Source of the DNA: Acidobacteriota bacterium
GTDB lineage: Bacteria; Acidobacteriota; Terriglobia; Acidiferrales; UBA7541
Direction of reading: 5' to 3'
DNA: 58,499 bases
Assembly: GCA_003224235.1 (NCBI GenBank)
Contig: QHYU01000057.1
Span: 1 to 58,499 of the forward strand
A program made the translations under genes and the position numbers. Of the stretch, positions 3,080 to 35,805 are shown one piece after another (position 1 is the stretch's first letter; each line of letters starts with the position of its first letter). The notes under the pieces are model-generated. The model had not been told where the DNA came from. It worked only from the letters and a program-made list of their open reading frames with translations, and did not search any database.

Positions 3080-4294
3080 ATGGCTGAATTCGTCTGCAAG
3101 GTAGCGGATTCCAGCGGGAAGGTCTTCTCGCAAGTGGAAGCGGCCCAGTCGGTCGCCGAGGCACAACAGAAGCTCGCAGACCGGGGCCTGTTTGTTTACT
3201 CGGTTCGCCCGCGCGGGGGGATAGTCTCTGCACTCTCGCCCCAACGACGCGACCGCGCTGTGGGTGGCTCCGATTTCCTGATTTTCAACCAACAATTCAA
3301 CACTCTGATTAAGGCCGGCCTGCCCATTCTGAAGGCGCTTGACCTGCTCGCAGAGCGGGCCGCATCGCCCCGGCTGCGCCCGGTGCTGGCCGACGTGCGC
3401 CAGTTGGTACGCGAAGGCACCGCCCTTTCGGAAGCACTCGAGAAGCGCGGTGTGTTTCCGAAAGTCTATACCACGTCGGTGCTGGCGGGGGAGAAGAGCG
3501 GCAACCTGACTGGCGTGCTGGACTACTACATTGCCTACCAGCGGGTCACCAGCGGCGTGCGCAAGCGGCTGCTGGCCACGCTGGTTTACCCAGTTATTCT
3601 GGTGACGGTGGCGACGGGGATCGTTACCTACATCGTGAGCTACGTCATCCCGCAGTTCTCACGGCTCTATTCGGAACTCAACATCGAGCTGCCGCTTGCG
3701 ACGCGCTTGCTGATTACCCTCACTGTCGGATTTCGCGCCTACATCCTTGCCGCGGTGGCACTGCTGGTCATCGCTGCCATCTCCGCCTACTTGTGGTCGC
3801 GCACTCGAGAGGGCGGCGTAGCGCTGGACCGGGTGAAGCTGCGCGTGCCGATTCTGGGTGAGACCTGGATCAAATTTCAGGTGGCGCAGTTCGCGCGCAC
3901 CCTTGGCACGCTGCAAGCTGGCGGCACGCCGCTGGTCAACGCGCTGCAGACCGCGGCGGAGGCTGTGAGCAGCCGGCTGATCTCGGAGTCCATTGCCCGG
4001 GCGGCGCAATTGGTGCGCGAAGGGCAGTCGTTGCACGCAGGCCTGGCGGCATCGGGCTTGGTGCCCGAACTCGCGTTAGAGATGATCGAAGTCGGCGAGG
4101 CCAGCGGCGCGCTGGCCCCCATGCTTGGCAGCGTGGCCGAATTCTATGAGGAGGAGGTCAATCTGCGCCTTTCTGCTTTGGTCGCAGTGGTCGAACCATT
4201 GATTTTGGTGTTGATGGGCTGTGTGGTAGCCTTCATCCTGATATCGCTCTACTTGCCCATCTTCAGCTTTTCGCTCTCGACCGCGCCGAAATAG
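3080..4294 (+). CDS. gspF: Type II secretion / type IV pilus inner-membrane platform protein
   Basis: Polytopic platform protein (GspF/PilC family) around which the assembly ATPase drives pilin or pseudopilin polymerisation. The 404 residues match family length. There are two T2SSF domains: the first begins near residue 70 (NQQFNTLIKAGLPILKAL), the second near 272 (QFARTLGTLQAGGTPLVNAL). Hydrophobic segments lie near residues 170-200, 215-235 and 370-397. It heads a tight operon with only 6 bp to the next start. The ribosome site is weak (TGTGGG) and a promoter-like pair sits so close that the transcript could be leaderless. gspF and pilC are equivalent names here because the rest of the operon is Pil-like. 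Confidence 0.9.
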   Translation: MAEFVCKVADSSGKVFSQVEAAQSVAEAQQKLADRGLFVYSVRPRGGIVSALSPQRRDRAVGGSDFLIFNQQFNTLIKAGLPILKALDLLAERAASPRLRPVLADVRQLVREGTALSEALEKRGVFPKVYTTSVLAGEKSGNLTGVLDYYIAYQRVTSGVRKRLLATLVYPVILVTVATGIVTYIVSYVIPQFSRLYSELNIELPLATRLLITLTVGFRAYILAAVALLVIAAISAYLWSRTREGGVALDRVKLRVPILGETWIKFQVAQFARTLGTLQAGGTPLVNALQTAAEAVSSRLISESIARAAQLVREGQSLHAGLAASGLVPELALEMIEVGEASGALAPMLGSVAEFYEEEVNLRLSALVAVVEPLILVLMGCVVAFILISLYLPIFSFSLSTAPK

Positions 4295-4300
4295 CGAGTC

Positions 4301-5932
4301 ATGGGAACCACTGAACACAACCTGAGCCCGCCAACCCAGTTGGATGACCAGCAGGAACGGGAGCGCACGCGCCGGCTGGCCGAGCGCTACCGTTGTGCCT
4401 TTGTGGACCTGCGCGAGCAGCGGATCGACCCGGAACTCTTCCGCAACATCCCGGCCGACCTGATGTTTCGCTTCAACTTTGTGCCGCTCGAGGCGCACAA
4501 CAATGCCTTGGTGGTGGCCGTGGCCGACCCCAGCCAGGTGCTGCTGAGCGATGAGCTGCAGTTGCTGCTGGGGAGAAAGCTAATCATCAAGGTCGCTACC
4601 GCGACGCAGATCGGCGACCTGCTCAAGCGCACGGAGCAGTCGCAGCGCGTCCTCGAGCAGGCCACCGAGGCTTTCACCCTCCAAGTGGTGCAGGAGGAGG
4701 AGGAAAGCGAAGAGACGATTTCCGGTGACCGGCTGACCGGCGACTCCGCCGTCAGCCCGGTAGTCCGCCTGGTGGACACGGTAATCTTCACCGCGCTCGA
4801 ACGCCGTGCCAGCGACATTCACATCGAGGCGCGCGACATCGAGGTCGTCGTCAAATACCGCATTGACGGCGTCCTGCAATACGCCATGCCCCCCATCGCC
4901 AAGGAGTGGCATTCCACCATCCTCTCCCGCATCAAAGTGATGAGCGAGCTCGATATCGCCGAGCGCCGCGTGCCTCAGGACGGCCGCTTCCGCGTCCGTT
5001 ACAAAGGACGCTTTGTGGACTTCCGCGTATCCATCATGCCCTCCATTCACGGCGAGGACGCCGTGCTGCGCGTGCTGGACAAGGAAACCCTCTCCGAGAA
5101 GTTCCAAAATCTGAGCCTCGACGTCGTCGGCTTCGCGGATGAAGACGTGCGCAAGCTCCGCCGCTACATTCGCGAGCCCTACGGCATGGTGTTGGTCACC
5201 GGGCCCACCGGCTCCGGGAAAACCACCACGCTTTACGCCGCGATCAACGAGATCAAGACCGATGAGGACAAAATCATCACCATTGAGGACCCGGTCGAAT
5301 ACCAGGTCCGCGGCATCACCCAGATTCCCGTGAATGAAAAGAAAGGCCTGACTTTCGCGCGCGGCCTGCGCTCCATTTTGCGCCACGACCCGGACAAGAT
5401 CATGGTGGGCGAGATCCGCGACCAGGAGACCGCGCAGATCGCCATCCAATCCGCTCTGACCGGGCACTTGGTCTTCACCACGGTCCACGCCAACAACGTC
5501 ACCGACGTAATTGGCCGGTTCATCAATATGGGCGTCGAGCCGTATAACTTTGTCTCTGCGCTCAACTGTATCCTTGCGCAGCGGCTGGTCCGCGTGGTCT
5601 GCGAAAACTGCAAGAAGCAAGTCCGCTACTCCCCCGCCGTGCTCAAGGAATCCGGTTTGGATCCCAAAGAGTGGGCGGGAGTGACCTTTGCCGAGGGCCC
5701 CGGCTGCCTGGAATGTTCCGGCACCGGTTATCACGGCCGGGTGGCTTTATCCGAACTGTTGGATCTCTCTGACCGCATCCGCGAGATGATCATCGACCGC
5801 CGGCCGACCTCGGAGATTAAGCGCGCGGCCCGGGAGGAGGGCATGACCTTTCTCCGCGAAGCGGGCATCGCCAAAGTTCGCGCCGGCATCACCACGTTGC
5901 GCGAGATCAATAAGGTGACCTTCATTGAGTAG
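4301..5932 (+). CDS. pilB: Type IV pilus / type II secretion assembly ATPase
   Basis: Cytoplasmic hexameric ATPase (GspE/PilB/MshE family) powering pilus or pseudopilus extension. The N-terminal MshEN-type domain spans roughly residues 25-150. The Walker A loop GPTGSGKTT starts at residue 301, with the aspartate-box and Walker B region (RSILRHDPDKIMVGEIRD) and the LTGHLVFTTVHANN histidine-box after it. The zinc-binding cysteine pairs CENC and CLEC near residues 437-470 are typical of extension rather than retraction ATPases. The 543 residues appear complete. It sits between gspF/pilC and pilM; the next start overlaps its end. Confidence 0.95.
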   Translation: MGTTEHNLSPPTQLDDQQERERTRRLAERYRCAFVDLREQRIDPELFRNIPADLMFRFNFVPLEAHNNALVVAVADPSQVLLSDELQLLLGRKLIIKVATATQIGDLLKRTEQSQRVLEQATEAFTLQVVQEEEESEETISGDRLTGDSAVSPVVRLVDTVIFTALERRASDIHIEARDIEVVVKYRIDGVLQYAMPPIAKEWHSTILSRIKVMSELDIAERRVPQDGRFRVRYKGRFVDFRVSIMPSIHGEDAVLRVLDKETLSEKFQNLSLDVVGFADEDVRKLRRYIREPYGMVLVTGPTGSGKTTTLYAAINEIKTDEDKIITIEDPVEYQVRGITQIPVNEKKGLTFARGLRSILRHDPDKIMVGEIRDQETAQIAIQSALTGHLVFTTVHANNVTDVIGRFINMGVEPYNFVSALNCILAQRLVRVVCENCKKQVRYSPAVLKESGLDPKEWAGVTFAEGPGCLECSGTGYHGRVALSELLDLSDRIREMIIDRRPTSEIKRAAREEGMTFLREAGIAKVRAGITTLREINKVTFIE

Positions 5933-6908
5933 CGCAAGCGGCGTACGCCAGGGCATTTATCAGAGCAGGTTGGCGCGCCGCATCGCCCGTTGGCTTGATG
6001 CCTTGCCCCATCCCTTGCTGGCCTGCGAGATCGCTCCCGGCTACGTGGCGGCGGCGCGATGGGCGCGCAGGGGCACGGGCCTGGATGGCTTCGCGGTCGA
6101 GTCGCTGCCGGACGGTGCCATCGTGCCATCCGCGGTGGAAACCAACCTCACGGATGCCGCTGCGGTGAAGGCCGCAGTGGGTCGGGCTTTTGCCCGCCTC
6201 CACGCCAAAGGCCAGGAACTGGCCCTGCTGATCCCAGACACGGTCATCCGCGTTTTCGTGCTGCACTTCGACTCCTTTCCGCGGACAGCAAGCGAGGCCA
6301 TCCCCATGCTGCGGTGGAAGTTGAAGAAGAGCGTGCCCTTTGAGCCCGAAGAGACGCTGGTGTCCTACATGCGCCAGGCGCCGCGCGAGGAAGGAGTGGA
6401 TATCGTTACCGGCCTGGCGCGGATGCGGATCGTGCGCGAATACGAAATGCTGGTGGAATCCGCCGGCATGTCGCCCGCCGTGGTGATGAGTTCGACGCTG
6501 GCCGCGCTGGCGCTGCTCGACGATCGCCGGGCTACCATGCTGGCACGAGTATCCGGCTCGACGCTGACTACCGCGATCGTTCGCGACGGCGTCCTATGCG
6601 GCTATCGGTGCACCGAGCTGGCCTCCGATTGGCCGCGTCTAACTCCTCAGGCGCTTCTAGATGAAATCTATCCGGTGGCGGCCTATTACCAGGATACCTG
6701 GCGGGAGGGTATCCAAGCCGTTCGCTTGGCGGGATTGGCCGAACGAACCGAGGAATTCCGGCGCCCCCTGGAGTCCGAGCTCCGCTGCCCGGTGGCCGGC
6801 CTGTTGGCCACTGCGTCGAGTGAGGGGCGTATCGCGAGCCCGGTGCGGCCGCTGGCGGAGCGTCAACTTGAGGCTTTGATCGGCTGGTCGATGAATCGGG
6901 GCGGTTGA
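5925..6908 (+). CDS. pilM: PilM-like actin-fold pilus assembly protein
   Basis: Cytoplasmic actin-like protein that binds the N-terminus of PilN and links the pilus alignment complex to the inner membrane. TTG at 5925 is taken as the start; it overlaps the end of pilB by 8 bp, and the next methionine lies far inside the conserved region. The N-terminus LLACEIAPGYVAAAR is the PilM phosphate-1-like segment. The 327 residues are slightly short for PilM (about 350). The assignment rests mainly on operon position directly before pilN and pilO, with moderate sequence resemblance. Confidence 0.75.
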   Translation: MSSASGVRQGIYQSRLARRIARWLDALPHPLLACEIAPGYVAAARWARRGTGLDGFAVESLPDGAIVPSAVETNLTDAAAVKAAVGRAFARLHAKGQELALLIPDTVIRVFVLHFDSFPRTASEAIPMLRWKLKKSVPFEPEETLVSYMRQAPREEGVDIVTGLARMRIVREYEMLVESAGMSPAVVMSSTLAALALLDDRRATMLARVSGSTLTTAIVRDGVLCGYRCTELASDWPRLTPQALLDEIYPVAAYYQDTWREGIQAVRLAGLAERTEEFRRPLESELRCPVAGLLATASSEGRIASPVRPLAERQLEALIGWSMNRGG

Positions 6909-6953
6909 TGTACTATTGCGGTACGGAGTTGTAGCGAAAGTTAAGGAGCGGAG

Positions 6954-7520
6954 ATGAAGGTTCGTCTGAATCTTGCCACCGCGCCGCTGGAAACCCACCG
7001 GCGGTTCGCTGCGGGCGCAGCGCTGGTCGGCAGCATCGCCGTCTTTGCGCTCGTGTGGCTCTCCTGGCACGCCTACAAGGCTCGCTTGGCGGACAGTGAG
7101 TTGCGCGCGGAACGCGTGCAACTGGAGCAGAGGATGGACACTCTCCGCCGGGAACGCCGGGACCTGGAACAGTTCTTCAACCGCCCGGACGTCCTCAAGG
7201 TGCGCGACCGCGGCAGTTTCCTCAACGGTCTGATCGAACAGCGCAGCTTCCCCTGGACAAAGATTTTCATGGACCTAGAGCGCATTCTTCCCGCTGGTGT
7301 GCGCCTGGTCAGCATCGGGCCGAAGATGAACTCTGGCCGCGTCGAGGTGAAGCTGGTCATTGGTGCCACCAGTGACGAAGCCAAGCTCAATTTCCTGCGT
7401 GCCCTGGAAAGTTCGAAAGAGTTTTCCCGCATCCAATTGCTGGGTGAAACGCGCCCGAGCCAGCCGGAGCAAGCCGGCCGGGTAGTACTGGAGTTGGTGG
7501 CCTGGTACGCCACGACCTAA
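6954..7520 (+). CDS. pilN: PilN-like fimbrial assembly protein
   Basis: Bitopic inner-membrane protein of the PilMNO alignment complex. It begins MKVRLNLATAP, close to the PilN start motif recognised by PilM. One transmembrane segment follows (about residues 22-42), then a coiled coil rich in Arg/Glu (45-80), then a ferredoxin-like periplasmic domain. The 188 residues fit the family. A GGAG ribosome site lies directly upstream. The stop codon at 7518-7520 abuts the ATG of pilO, suggesting translational coupling. Confidence 0.85.
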   Translation: MKVRLNLATAPLETHRRFAAGAALVGSIAVFALVWLSWHAYKARLADSELRAERVQLEQRMDTLRRERRDLEQFFNRPDVLKVRDRGSFLNGLIEQRSFPWTKIFMDLERILPAGVRLVSIGPKMNSGRVEVKLVIGATSDEAKLNFLRALESSKEFSRIQLLGETRPSQPEQAGRVVLELVAWYATT

Positions 7521-8060
7521 ATGAGCAACGCAAAAAAGCACATCGCCTTGATCCGCTGGGCTCTGGGCGTCATCCTAGCCATGGATGTGGGGCTGGTCAT
7601 CCTCAATTTGCGGGGCCCAGGCTCCCCGCAACAGCTGCGGGCTGAGAACAACCGCTTCCGCGCCCAGCTTTCCCTTCTTGAGGCGGACGTCAAGCGCGGG
7701 AAGTCCATCCAGCGGGACATGGACAAGGTGCAAGGCGACTGCGACCGGTTTTTTGAGGAAGAGTTGCGCCCCGCCACGCGCGGTTATTCCGCCATCGAGG
7801 CGGACCTCGGGGCCATCACCAGCAAAGCCGGCTTGCGCACCGACGCGGTGACCTTCCGCCAGCGGGACATCAGCGGCCGCGGCGTGGTGGAGATCGAAGT
7901 GGCCGCCGCGGTAGAAGGCGACTACGCGAACGTGATCAACTTTATTAACGGCCTGGAACGTTCGCACAATTTTTATGTGTTGGACGGCCTCTCCCTAGCG
8001 TCCAGCACAGCCGGCAACCTAAGACTTAATTTGCAACTCCGGACCTATTTCCGGTCTTGA
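7521..8060 (+). CDS. pilO: PilO-like pilus assembly protein
   Basis: Partner of PilN in the inner-membrane alignment complex. One transmembrane helix spans about residues 8-30, followed by a coiled-coil region (38-75) and a compact C-terminal domain ending LRLNLQLRTYFRS. The start abuts the pilN stop and the end overlaps the next gene by 4 bp. Sequence identity alone would be weak; topology, size (179 residues) and position make PilO the best call. Confidence 0.75.
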   Translation: MSNAKKHIALIRWALGVILAMDVGLVILNLRGPGSPQQLRAENNRFRAQLSLLEADVKRGKSIQRDMDKVQGDCDRFFEEELRPATRGYSAIEADLGAITSKAGLRTDAVTFRQRDISGRGVVEIEVAAAVEGDYANVINFINGLERSHNFYVLDGLSLASSTAGNLRLNLQLRTYFRS

Positions 8061-8593
8061 TGATGGCGCGCCGAACCCAAATCGTTGTTCTCGGGGTGCT
8101 TGCGGTGGTGCTCATCGGGGTCCTGTATTTTCAACTTCGCCGGCCATCGGCCGGCAACAGCACGCTTGCGGCTGAGTTCAAGGTCGATCCGCTGCCGGTC
8201 GAGAATCCATTGCTGCGGCGGGATCTGCTGAACCGCATCCGCAGATTCGAGTACTCAGGTCGCCACCGCAATATCTTTACCGGGGAGGTTCCACCAGAGG
8301 AGCAGCCGCGGCAGGAGGCGCCGCCGGTCGTGCAGGATACCGGTCCCCCAGCACCGCCGCCGGTTGTCGTTCCGGCCAAATTCTTTGGCTATGTTGCCGA
8401 CTCGCGAACTGGCTTTCGCCGCGCTTTCTTTTCCGATGGCGAGGAGGTCTACATCCTCGCGGAAGGCGAAGTCCTGTTGAGCCGATTCCGCCTGCTACGG
8501 ATCACCAACACCACCGCCGACATGGAGGAGATTTCCTCCGGACGGCGTACCACGCTCGTGCTCGAAGAGCCGGGGCAGCCGCCCTCAGCATGA
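8057..8593 (+). CDS. Membrane-anchored protein in PilP/GspC position
   Basis: One N-terminal transmembrane helix (about residues 8-27), a Pro/Gly/Glu-rich linker (about 78-105), and a C-terminal beta-rich domain (FFGYVADSRTGFRRAFFSDGEEVYILAEGE) resembling the PilP/GspC homology region that contacts the secretin. The 178 residues, operon position after pilO and overlaps with both neighbours support a role linking the inner-membrane complex to the outer-membrane secretin. No secretin gene is in the window. I do not see the lipobox expected of a classical PilP, so the name is left open. Confidence 0.6.
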   Translation: MMMARRTQIVVLGVLAVVLIGVLYFQLRRPSAGNSTLAAEFKVDPLPVENPLLRRDLLNRIRRFEYSGRHRNIFTGEVPPEEQPRQEAPPVVQDTGPPAPPPVVVPAKFFGYVADSRTGFRRAFFSDGEEVYILAEGEVLLSRFRLLRITNTTADMEEISSGRRTTLVLEEPGQPPSA

Positions 8594-9312
8594 AGCTCAT
8601 CCACGCATCACCGCAAACCACTCGCAGCCAAGCAGGCTACGCCCTGCTGATGGTGATTTTCCTGGCCTCCATCCTGCTGATTGCACTGTCCGTGGCTGCG
8701 CCCAACCTGCTGACTCAGGGCAAGCGCGACAAAGAGGAGGAGTTGATCTGGCGCGGCGAGCAGTATGCGCGCGCCGTGCGTCTCTACTACCGCAAATTCG
8801 GCCGCTTCCCCCAGGCGCTCGAGGACCTCACCCAAGCAAAGAACCAAATCCGCTTCATGCGCAAGGCATACAAGGACCCGATGAACGCCGAAGATGGGAG
8901 CTGGCGGCTGATCTACGTCAGCCCCTCCGGGCAGCTCATCGGCAGCGTCCGGCAACGCAGTTTGCTGATTGGCCTGGGAGATAAACCTGCAACAAAACGT
9001 CGGCGTGCTCGGCGGGAGGTCGCGATCGGGGATGATACGCAAGAAGAGGATCAGCCTATATCGGCGACGCCCCCTCAGACTCCGGCAAAGGCTGGGGGCG
9101 ACGACCTCACTGGCAAGGTTCTCGGCGGGAACATCATCGGCGTTGGCAGCAAGGTGGACAAGACCTCTATCCGCGCCTACGAAGGCTCCACGACCTACCG
9201 CGAGTGGGAATTTCTTTTTGACCCCGCAAAAGATGTCGCAGGTGTAGGGGCCCGGCCCGGCGCTCCTGTGGGAACGCCCGCCGGCACCCCGCAAAAGATG
9301 TCGCAGGTGTAG
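8590..9312 (+). CDS. Type II secretion pseudopilin-like protein, C-terminus altered by duplication
   Basis: Pilin-like protein ending the pilus operon. A prepilin-like G/Y site (SQAGYALLMVIFLASILL) precedes the single hydrophobic helix, but position 5 of the mature chain is Met rather than the conserved Glu, as in tip-type minor pseudopilins. A conserved globular segment follows (IWRGEQYARAVRLYYRKFGRFPQALEDL). The present stop at 9310-9312 results from an exact 65-bp tandem duplication (9221-9350). Removing one copy restores a frame to 9404 ending in SPPPPPVPP. The current end TPQKMSQV is therefore probably not ancestral. The gene overlaps its upstream neighbour by 4 bp. Confidence 0.8.
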   Translation: MKLIHASPQTTRSQAGYALLMVIFLASILLIALSVAAPNLLTQGKRDKEEELIWRGEQYARAVRLYYRKFGRFPQALEDLTQAKNQIRFMRKAYKDPMNAEDGSWRLIYVSPSGQLIGSVRQRSLLIGLGDKPATKRRRARREVAIGDDTQEEDQPISATPPQTPAKAGGDDLTGKVLGGNIIGVGSKVDKTSIRAYEGSTTYREWEFLFDPAKDVAGVGARPGAPVGTPAGTPQKMSQV

Positions 9313-9350
9313 GGGCCCGGCCCGGCGCTCCTGTGGGAACGCCCGCCGGC
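9221..9350 (+). repeat. Exact 65-bp tandem duplication
   Basis: Copies 9221-9285 and 9286-9350 are identical base for base. The unit length is not a multiple of three, so the second copy shifts the pseudopilin frame and creates a stop at 9310-9312. With one copy the frame would run to the TAG at 9402-9404. Perfect identity implies a very recent event or an assembly artefact. Confidence 0.95.
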
Positions 9351-9673
9351 AGTCAGACCAATCCGCCCGGCGGCAGCCCACCGCCACCTCCTGTCCCGCC
9401 ATAGAACTTCGCCTCGGCCCAGATCGGAAGCCCTTCGCGCACGATCTTCTCCACTTTCCACCTTCCGTCACGATTCAATCCGCAGACGCACGCCCCAGGC
9501 CGCTGATTGCCCAGGCAACACACCTGGTGGGCCGGCACAGGCACTCCGGCATGCGGATGGGCGCAAGGTGGAATGTCCGGGGTCTTCGATCGATCGGCCA
9601 AGCTAGGGGGTAAGGCCCGTCGCACTTTGGCTGCCTTGTGCCCTGAGTGCTGTCCGGGTCTCTGGGCCGGAGT
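9313..9673. other. Intergenic, including the displaced tail of the pseudopilin frame
   Basis: Positions 9351-9404 would encode the ancestral proline-rich C-terminus of the pseudopilin if the duplication were collapsed. The rest carries a GTG-initiated minus-strand open frame (9625-9353, about 90 codons) with several Cys and His residues. I cannot match it to a family, and it overlaps the displaced tail, so I do not call it a gene. Confidence 0.5.
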
Positions 9674-10477
9674 TTATCGAGAATCAGGTGCAGGCTGTGT
9701 GGAGTCAGCGGTTTGACCGCCGTCGGTCTTGTGCTTCTTGTGCTCACCCAATTGCCGCGCCACGCGTCGTAAGTACATGCGAGTCTCGGGAAACGGTGGC
9801 ACACCGCGGTACTGCTCGACGCGATCCGGCCCCGCATTGTATGCCGCCAGCGCCAGCGCCAGGTCTTGATCGTATCGGGTGAGGAGTTGTTTCAGGAAGC
9901 GTGTCCCAGCATCGATGTTTTGCGCTGGGTCGAACACATTGGTCACCGCGAAGCGCGCAACGGTCTCTGGCAGCAATTGCATCAGCCCGCGCGCCTGCTT
10001 GGGCGAGACGGCGCGCGGGTTGAAATTGGATTCGACCGCAATCACGCTGGCGATCAACTCCTGGTCAACACCGTGCTTTGAGGCCGCTGCGCGGATCAGC
10101 TCTCCAAACGGCACGTTCAGGCTCGCGGCCGGGGGCGGAGGGGCAGGGAAGGAATCTTCCGGCTCGAATGCGACCACGTCCTCAGCGGCGACATCGACCA
10201 GCCCGCCGGCCATCTGCAGGCGGTACGCGGTCGCCAAGTGCTCGTAGCCGGTGATGTGCAGCCGCTGGCCGTTTCGCAACACGGCATATTCGGCCCGCGC
10301 CAGCGGTGCCGCCGCCAAAGTCAGGAACAGCGCCAAGATGACGAGGCCTTCTGCTCGCCTTGCTCGTGATGGCAAGGCTTTCTGCTTGCTTCGCTCGGAA
10401 AGACAACTCCCTCGGACAGGCGTGGCGTGCGTCCTCTGCTTCTTGAACGTCTCTGCGCTGAGCATTCTCCGCCTCAT
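9674..10477 (-). CDS. Soluble lytic transglycosylase (SLT domain)
   Basis: Exported peptidoglycan-cleaving enzyme. The catalytic Glu lies in SVIAVESNFNPRAVSPKQARGLMQLLP, followed by the substrate-groove motif ALAAYNAGPDRVEQY. A signal-peptide-like segment (VILALFLTLAAAPLARA) lies about 45 residues after the ATG at 10477, which is far for a signal peptide. The DNA in between includes repeat-like sequence, so the true start may be internal. The annotated ATG overlaps the stop of the phosphatase gene upstream (ATGA), suggesting coupling. The C-terminal tail is polar and low-complexity. Confidence 0.85.
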   Translation of the reverse strand: MRRRMLSAETFKKQRTHATPVRGSCLSERSKQKALPSRARRAEGLVILALFLTLAAAPLARAEYAVLRNGQRLHITGYEHLATAYRLQMAGGLVDVAAEDVVAFEPEDSFPAPPPPAASLNVPFGELIRAAASKHGVDQELIASVIAVESNFNPRAVSPKQARGLMQLLPETVARFAVTNVFDPAQNIDAGTRFLKQLLTRYDQDLALALAAYNAGPDRVEQYRGVPPFPETRMYLRRVARQLGEHKKHKTDGGQTADSTQPAPDSR

Positions 10478-18235: not shown

Positions 18236-21200
18236 ATGATTAGGTACCTGGTTGAGTTTGCCCTGCGGAACAAAATCCTGGTCTTGAGCCTGGGCGTAAT
18301 CCTTGTCGTCTGGGGTGTCATCTCTTTCCACACGCTTCCGGTTGAGGCTTACCCGGATGTGGCCAACAACTGGGTACAGGTAATCTCACAGTGGCCCGGA
18401 CGGGCCGCCGAGGAAGTCGAACAGCAGGTCACCATTCCGATCGAGGTGCAGATGAACGGGATCGCACACCTCACCCATTTGCGCTCGACCTCGCTCTTCG
18501 GTCTTTCCGTCGTCACGATGGTTTTCGACGACGATTCCGTCGACTTGACAAACCGACAGCAAGTGTTGGAAAGGCTCTCACTCGTCACTTTGCCACAAAA
18601 CGTGAATCCGCAACTTGCCCCGGACGCGAGCCCTACGGGGCAGATTTACTTTTAGACCCTCAAGAGCAGGAACCCCCGGTACGACTTGATGGAGCTCAAG
18701 TCCTTGCAAGATTGGGTGCTGGAAAAGCAGTTCAAGTCGGTACCGAATGTGGTTGATGTCGTGAGTTTCGGAGGGATCACGCGCGAGTATCAGGTCCGGG
18801 TCGATCCGAACAAGCTGATCTCCTACGGTCTGAGCATCGGGCAAGTCGAACAAGCCCTGGCCGCGAACAATGTCAACGCCGGGGGCAGCTTCATTGAGCG
18901 GGGCCAACAGGCAGTGAACATTCGGGCCGTCGGCTTGATGAAAAACACGGACGACATCGGTGCCACATTCTTAAAAACAGTGAATGGCACACCGGTGCGT
19001 GTTCGGGATGTGGCCTTTGCCACCCAGGGCCCGAAAATCCGCCTGGGCCGAGTCGCCAAGGCCGTTCGCCTGGGAGACCGGGTGATCGACTATGACGACG
19101 TTGTCCACGGCATTGTGCTGCTGCGCAAAGGGGCCGTGGCGGAAACCACGCTGGCCGCGCTGGATAGGAAAGTCGAGGATTTGAACGCACATGTCTTGCC
19201 GGCCGGGGTGAAAATTGTCCCGCACATCGACCGGGACGATCTGGTGCGTTACACGACGCACACGGTGTTGCGCAATCTGACGGAAGGCTTTGTGCTGGTG
19301 GTGGTCGTCCTGGTCGTGTTTCTGGGGAACGTACGCTCCGCTCTCATCGTGGCGATCACGATTCCGTTTTCGCTGCTGTTTGCTTCCATTCTGCTGGACC
19401 TCCGCCAAATTCCCGCCAACTTGCTTTCCTTAGGCGCTCTTGATTTCGGGATGGTGGTGGATGGCGCGGTCGTGATGATTGAAAACATCGTGCGACACAT
19501 CGGCCGGGAGAACGAGAAAAGGCGGACGGTGGGAGCCAAAATCCGCCACGCCGCGCACGAGGTGCAGCGGCCCGTTTTCTACGCCATCGCCATTATCATC
19601 ACGGCGTATCTGCCCATCTTCACTCTGCAGAGCGTCGAGGGGCGGCTTTTCCGGCCGATGGCATGGACGGTGGCATTTGCGCTTCTCGGGGCCTTGCTCT
19701 TCTCCCTGTTGCTCGCCCCCGTCTTGGCAAGGCTTTCGTTCCGCAAGGGCGCGCACGAGTGGGAAAACCCGCTTCTCGTGTGGCTCACGGACCACTACCG
19801 GTCAGCGCTGAGTTGGGCGATTGCGCATCGGGGAATCACCGTGGGCGCTTCGGTTCTGATTTTTATGGGCACCTTGTGTCTTGCGTTCAGCGGGGTGATT
19901 GGGTCGGAGTTTCTGCCCCATCTCGATGAAGGCGCTATTTGGGCGAGAGGAACCCTCGCGCCTAGTACGGGCCCCAGCGAGGGCCAGCGCATTGCTAACG
20001 AGGCGCGGCTTGTGCTCGCTCGTTTCCCCGAAGTGACCCAGGTGGTCTCCCAAGTGGGTCGGCCGGACGACGGCACGGACAGCACGGGTTTCTTCAACAC
20101 CGAATACTTCGTGGACTTGAAACCCAGAGCGGAGTGGCGTAGGCAGTTCCGAACCAAAGAAGACTTGATCGCCGCCATGGATACCCAGCTCGAAAAGATC
20201 CCCGGGGTCATCTGGAATTTCTCCCAACCCATTGCCGATAACGTCGAAGAAGCCGTCAGCGGCGTGAAGGGAGAACTCGCGGTCAAATTGTATGGCGACG
20301 ATCTCAAAGCACTGGAGCAGAAGGGCGAAGAGATCGTCAAGGTTATGAAGCGCATCCGCGGGGTCGAAGACCTCGGCCTGTTTCGCGTGGTCGGCCAGCC
20401 GAACCTGAACCTCGTCGTGAATCGCGCGAAAGCGGACCGCTTCGGCATCAATGTTGCCGATGTGCAGGACGCCATCGAGACCGCCGTCGGCGGCAAGGCC
20501 GTCAGTCAAGTCCTGCAGGGCGAGCGGCGCTACGACCTCGTGGTGCGCTATCAGGAGCCGTACCGGCGCACGCTCGAGGACATCAAGAACATTCGCTTGC
20601 TGGCTCCGTCGGGAGAACGCGTGGCGTTAGAGCAGTTGTGCGATGTCAAATTGGAAGACGGCGCCTCGATGATCTATCGCGAGAGCAATTCGCGTTACAT
20701 CGCCATCAAATACAGTGTGCGCGGGCGGGATCTGGGCAGCACAGTGGAAGAGGCGATCAGGGAAGTCACTCAGAAGGTGAAGCTGCCCGAAGGTTATCGC
20801 CTGAACTGGGCGGGAGAGTATGAAAGCCAGAAGCGCTCGGAGCGGCGCCTGCTGGTCATCGTTCCGATTACAATTCTTTTGATTTTTCTCATCTTGTACA
20901 CTGCATTTGGCTCGTACAAGTGGTGCTTATTGATCGGACACACTTCAGCGTCTCCTCCGGCGTCGGATTTCTGGCGCTGTTCGGAGTCTCTGTGCAGATC
21001 GGCGTCATCATGGTCGAATACATCAATCAGTTGCGCACTCGCGGCCACACGGTGCTGGAGGCCGCAACAGAAGGAGCGATCCTGCGTCTCCGTCCCATCA
21101 TGATGACTATGCTCGTGGCCACGTTGGGCCTGCTACCGGCTGCGGTTTCCCACGACATCGGCTCGGATTCCCAACGACCCTTCGCCATTGTCATTGTCGG

Positions 21201-21312
21201 CGGCTTGATTGCGGACCTGGTGATGAGCATCTTCCTGCTCCCAACCCTGTACGTCTGGTTTGCCCGCCCTGCCGACAAGCTCCCCGCGCCCGAGGAGTAC
21301 TTTACAGAATAA
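18236..21312 (+). pseudogene. CzcA/CusA-family RND metal efflux pump, disrupted
   Basis: Inner-membrane proton-driven pump of the heavy-metal efflux class. The start is intact (MIRYLVEFALRNKIL). An in-frame TAG at 18653-18655 replaces a Tyr-like position in the conserved QIYF(Y)TLKS strand. Past it the same frame continues collinear with the family, including the TM4 motif LDFGMVVDGAVVMIENI. At about 20920, after FGSYKW, a TM segment of about 18 residues is missing. The tail THFSVSSGVGFLALFGVS...EYFTE is one frame over and ends at 21312. Two independent lesions make a functional full-length pump unlikely unless they are sequence errors. Confidence 0.9.
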
Positions 21313-35301: not shown

Positions 35302-35805
35302 ATGGGAAGTATTGGCGTCTCCGAACTGATCGTCATCTTTATCATCGCCCTCATTGTCTTTGGGCCGCAAAAGTTGCCCGAGCTTGGCCGCACTATCGGC
35401 AAGGCCTTGGCTGAGTTCCGGAAGCACTCGGCGGAATTGCGCGTGGCCGTCGACCAGGAGATGCGCGAGCTCGAACGCCACACGCAGGAACTCGAGACCA
35501 AAGCCCGTGAGGCGGTTGAGCCGCCCGCGGCACCCGCTCTGCCGCCCGAGAGCCCGGTCAGCTCTGTGGCTATTGACCCCTACCACGGCGTCCCAGTCCA
35601 GCCCATCCCTACTGCGCTCAGCTCTGAGGAGCAGCACGCGGTTGAGCCAGCCGCGGTGCCCGTTGTGCTGCCCGAGAGCCCGGCTGGCGCTGCGGCTATG
35701 GATCCCTACCAGGGTGCCCCACCGCAGCCCACCCCTGCTGCGCTCAGCTCTGAGGAGCCGAACACGGGAGAGAAGCCTACGGATGGTCACTCCAAGCCAG
35801 CCTGA
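35302..35805 (+). CDS. tatA: Sec-independent translocase TatA/TatB-like protein with repeated tail
   Basis: Single-span Tat component forming the transport pore. The N-terminal helix and hinge [20 protein letters not shown] followed by PQKLPELGR are diagnostic, then an amphipathic helix. The tail is Pro/Glu/Ala-rich and consists of a 42-residue unit repeated twice (35518-35643 and 35644-35769), unusually long for TatA. 167 residues. The stop lies 22 bp inside tatC, so the two are co-translated. TatA versus TatB cannot be separated with certainty; Gly-Pro at the hinge and the short N-terminus fit either. Confidence 0.92.
35518..35769 (+). repeat. Two tandem 126-bp coding repeats in tatA
   Basis: Units 35518-35643 and 35644-35769 code for related 42-residue blocks containing LPPESP / LPESP, DPY.G, QP.P.ALSSEE. 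The units have diverged, so the duplication is old compared with the 65-bp duplication at 9221. Confidence 0.85.

Follow-up and report, generated by a model that had tools for sequence, protein, structure and literature searches.

Gene organization and identity of the pseudopilin-like protein

The window, i.e., the whole stretch of 58,499 nucleotides that was analysed, contains a run of same-strand genes spanning 3080..8593 (+) that lies directly upstream of a pseudopilin-like gene, which is its last member. The genes and features considered here are as follows, with the evidence for each in brackets.

3080-4294, + strand: GspF-like gene (Pfam, NCBIfam, ORFs)
4301-5932, + strand: GspE/PilB-like gene (Pfam, NCBIfam, ORFs)
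5925-6908, + strand: PilM-like gene (Pfam, NCBIfam, ORFs)
6954-7520, + strand: gene without a family match (Pfam, NCBIfam, ORFs)
7521-8060, + strand: GspM-like gene (Pfam, NCBIfam, ORFs)
8057-8593, + strand: second gene without a family match (Pfam, NCBIfam, ORFs)
8590..9312, + strand: pseudopilin-like protein, 240 amino acids as assembled (ORF, homologues, alignments, AlphaFold model)
9221..9285, + strand: copy 1 of a 65-bp unit (TRF, 100% match; repeat finder)
9286..9350, + strand: copy 2 of the unit, translated in a shifted frame as TPQKMSQV and then TAG at 9310-9312 (TRF, ORF)
9351..9404, + strand: orphaned, probably ancestral C-terminus, SQTNPPGGSPPPPPVPP and stop, in frame only with one unit omitted (tail-composition score)
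9674-10477, opposite strand: lytic transglycosylase-like gene, the next gene downstream

The Pfam families PF00437, PF05157, and PF00482 were found in the upstream genes, which indicates an operon with a GspE/PilB-type ATPase and a GspF/PilC-type membrane protein. The NCBIfam models TIGR02538, TIGR02533, and TIGR02120 also matched upstream genes, below their cut-offs.

The pseudopilin-like protein consists of a prepilin-like N-terminal segment (GYALLMVIFL), a folded core extending to approximately residue 219, and a disordered tail. A class III signal was recognized from the alignments and the AlphaFold model, in which G16 is invariant, Y17 is nearly invariant, and a helix covers residues 10-70. 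Glu was absent at mature position 5 (GYALLMV...), and it was likewise absent at the same position in the aligned relatives. The window protein gave no match to Pfam or NCBIfam at 0.001, and among the 35 aligned members weak E-value matches were obtained with GspG for 4 and with GspK for 3. No credible relative of solved structure was found by sequence search or by Foldseek against the PDB, and a literature search found nothing specific on acidobacterial pseudopilins. The protein resembles GspG and GspK, the pseudopilins of type II secretion, in its prepilin-like N-terminal helix, in its operon with GspE-, GspF-, and GspM-like genes, and in the weak matches of a few relatives to their models. 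It differs from them in having no model match, no PDB fold match, and no Glu5, a feature of major-type pseudopilins that GspK lacks, and in possessing a second conserved block (approximately residues 176-212) and the proline-rich tail. The designation as a pseudopilin in the original prediction agrees with the operon position and the N-terminal motif, whereas the family models match weakly and only in other members. Judged from sequence, the gene product is probably a pseudopilin-like part of a type II secretion or type IV pilus-like system encoded by this acidobacterial operon.

Homologues were present in 56 of the 61 genomes searched, and public genomes, almost exclusively Acidobacteriota MAGs, contributed 78 loci. 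The alignments showed conserved residues up to position 119, a variable linker, the second conserved block, and the tail, with P212 as the last invariant residue. The AlphaFold model, calculated with a 35-sequence alignment, had a mean pLDDT of 73. All predicted helices and strands ended by residue 219, and residues 221-240 were nearly all below a pLDDT of 50.

The 65-bp tandem duplication and the reading frame

The two copies of the 65-bp unit are identical. TRF gave a period of 65, 2.0 copies, and a 100% match with no indels, in agreement with the repeat finder, and an exact two-copy match of this length is not due to chance. The periodic match extends over 66 bases, which leaves a 1-bp ambiguity at the junction, and the breakpoints have a single base in common. 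The unit length equals 3×21+2, and the duplication therefore shifts the reading frame.

As assembled, the ORF at 8590-9312 comprises 240 codons and ends in ...GTPAGTPQKMSQV. Omission of one unit extends the frame to 9404 and gives a protein of 249 amino acids that ends in ...GTPAGSQTNPPGGSPPPPPVPP, including the motif SPPPPPVPP. Residues 1-232 are identical in the one-unit and two-unit proteins, and the sequences differ from residue 233 onward, where the eight residues TPQKMSQV stand in for 17 with a net loss of 9. The original prediction described an exact, frameshifting duplication whose collapse restores a proline-rich tail, and each of these points was reproduced. It also stated that the duplication truncates the protein; the frame does end earlier, but the term is too strong for a net loss of 9 residues from a disordered tail.

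C-terminal tails of the relatives

We compared 78 distinct tails of at least 20 residues, taken after the YxxWEFxxDP motif. All except one, from a distant Desulfuromonadaceae sequence, were rich in P, G, and Q. Their length was highly variable (30-101 amino acids in Acidobacteriota) and they contained no conserved sequence. The final residue was Q or P in 58 of the 78, whereas TPQKMSQV ends otherwise. An ending of the TPQKMSQV type in relatives, which would have spoken for the assembled stop as the original one, was found in none of the 78 tails. These tails also contained no tandem duplication near 65 bp in size, and the exact repeats in them had periods of 9-12 bp.

The 17 orphaned residues scored 20.2 bits against the composition of the relatives' tails, and the other two frames scored -28.4 and -9.2. 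None of 11868 stop-free windows reached the score of the orphaned tail. Because the orphaned tail resembles the tails of the relatives and the alternative frames do not, the ancestral frame is very probably the single-copy, proline-rich one and the duplication a recent event, so that the change would have been from one copy to two.

Probable origin and effect of the duplication

We consider the pair to be a recent, near-neutral tandem duplication that changed the tail, an ordinary mutation in the sampled population, with a probability of roughly 55%. An ordinary event, either replication slippage or illegitimate duplication, would have produced a single exact 65-bp duplication in the 3′ end of the pseudopilin-like gene. 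The unit length is not divisible by three, and the resulting frameshift would have exchanged the final 17 residues of a disordered, fast-changing P/G-rich tail for 8 others. The folded part (residues 1 to approximately 219) and the 13 residues at the start of the tail zone would have stayed as before. The likely consequence would be none or mild, with no same-strand gene directly downstream; a polar effect is unlikely because the lytic transglycosylase-like gene lies on the opposite strand. From the predicted structure, near-neutrality of the tail change is most likely, but tail composition, even without a conserved sequence, may have a role, which counts against this reading. An ordinary duplication is supported by other tandem duplications of the same genome that keep the frame (81 bp at L045 and 126 bp at 35512-35758).

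The close rival of a real duplication is an assembly artefact, in which the organism would carry one copy and overlapping contig or read pieces would have been joined with the 65-bp overlap left unmerged. We regard this as a serious possibility, somewhat short of an even chance. Published work has traced many apparent pseudogenes to errors of assembly (PMC11017572), and the present genome is a draft of 237 contigs with 99.38% completeness. Bases 1-859 of the contig and the final 859 bases of contig C107 (L170 10837-11695) overlap without gaps at 98%, and the 18 substitutions between them cause 7 amino-acid changes. The overlap may stem from unmerged ends of mixed or varying strains, or from a second, near-identical copy. 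No second copy of the pseudopilin-like locus itself was found in the assembly. Two further genes of the window contain frame-breaking deletions relative to homologues, namely the Oar-like TonB-dependent receptor gene (1-2847, -; approximately 44 bp near 1072, relative to three homologues) and the CzcA/CusA-like efflux pump gene (18236-21312, +; approximately 55 bp near 20920). These deletions could reflect decay or misassembly, and an in-frame TAG at 18653-18655 makes real decay equally possible in the efflux pump gene.

Against an artefact, the codon-model frameshift rate was no higher than in the relatives' loci (0.6 vs 1.0 per 100 kb), and no other exact frame-breaking duplication, of 65 bp or any other size, was found in approximately 831 kb of the same genome, sampled as stretches that included 61 other contigs. 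A systematic k-mer or overlap artefact, which would be expected to leave many 65-bp duplications, was rejected because none occurred in this sample. We also considered whether the contig is clearly enriched in frameshifts. Two of nine candidates, some of them likely false, fell within its 7% of the scanned bases, which is suggestive only. The frameshift candidate at L054 consists of a small indel and differs in this from the two larger deletions of the window.

The original prediction further proposed that the duplication acts as a reversible, slip-based on/off or tail switch. Exact repeats that lie side by side are by their nature liable to lose one copy, and phase variation, whether it affected the tail or the whole protein, would exploit this property. 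Loss of one copy is possible for any tandem duplication, and proneness to it is therefore no evidence of a switch function. Hypermutable loci would be expected to hold an array of several short units; TRF and the repeat finder detected only a single pair, with a 1-bp junction overlap. Nothing comparable was retained at the same site in the 78 distinct tails of the relatives. The predicted fold ends by residue 219 and residues 1-232 are unchanged, which argues against an on/off effect. A switch is accordingly very unlikely, and we did not retain this part of the prediction. It appears slightly less likely still that one-copy and two-copy forms really coexist in the population as a reversible polymorphism that toggles the tail between the proline-rich and the short form.

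Two known systems bear on this question. Reversible intragenic tandem duplications, mediated by microhomology, are described for the fission yeast gene ssp1 (review: PMC13207564) and, like the present pair, are short, exact, and intragenic, produce an early stop, and are reversible in principle. Unlike them, the present pair has a junction overlap of 1 bp, changes the disordered tail alone, and is known from one assembled sequence. As in contingency loci, where slipped-strand events act on simple sequence repeats, the frame that is read here would depend on copy number, but the locus has two long units rather than a series of short ones, the relatives show no recurrence, and no on/off effect is predicted for the folded part.

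Instead of a genetic switch, the 65-bp pair most likely represents either a recent mutation of the ordinary kind or a mistake in assembly. It serves mainly as a reminder to be cautious with draft genomes, in which an exact duplication that shifts the frame close to a stop codon can mimic a switch and alter only an unconserved tail. Should the pair be a true reversible polymorphism, bacteria would offer in it an uncommon example of a single long-unit duplication that changes a secretion-system protein.

Other tandem repeats in the genome

Tandem pairs were defined by a period of at least 20 bp and an unbroken match over at least 80% of the period. By this definition, the sample of approximately 831 kb contained only one other pair, which is nearly exact and in frame; its 81-bp units, at L045 from position 1284, encode 27-residue repeats. 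The two-copy 126-bp tandem repeat at 35512-35758 of the window is 81% identical and open in one + frame, and its translation is Pro/Ala-rich.
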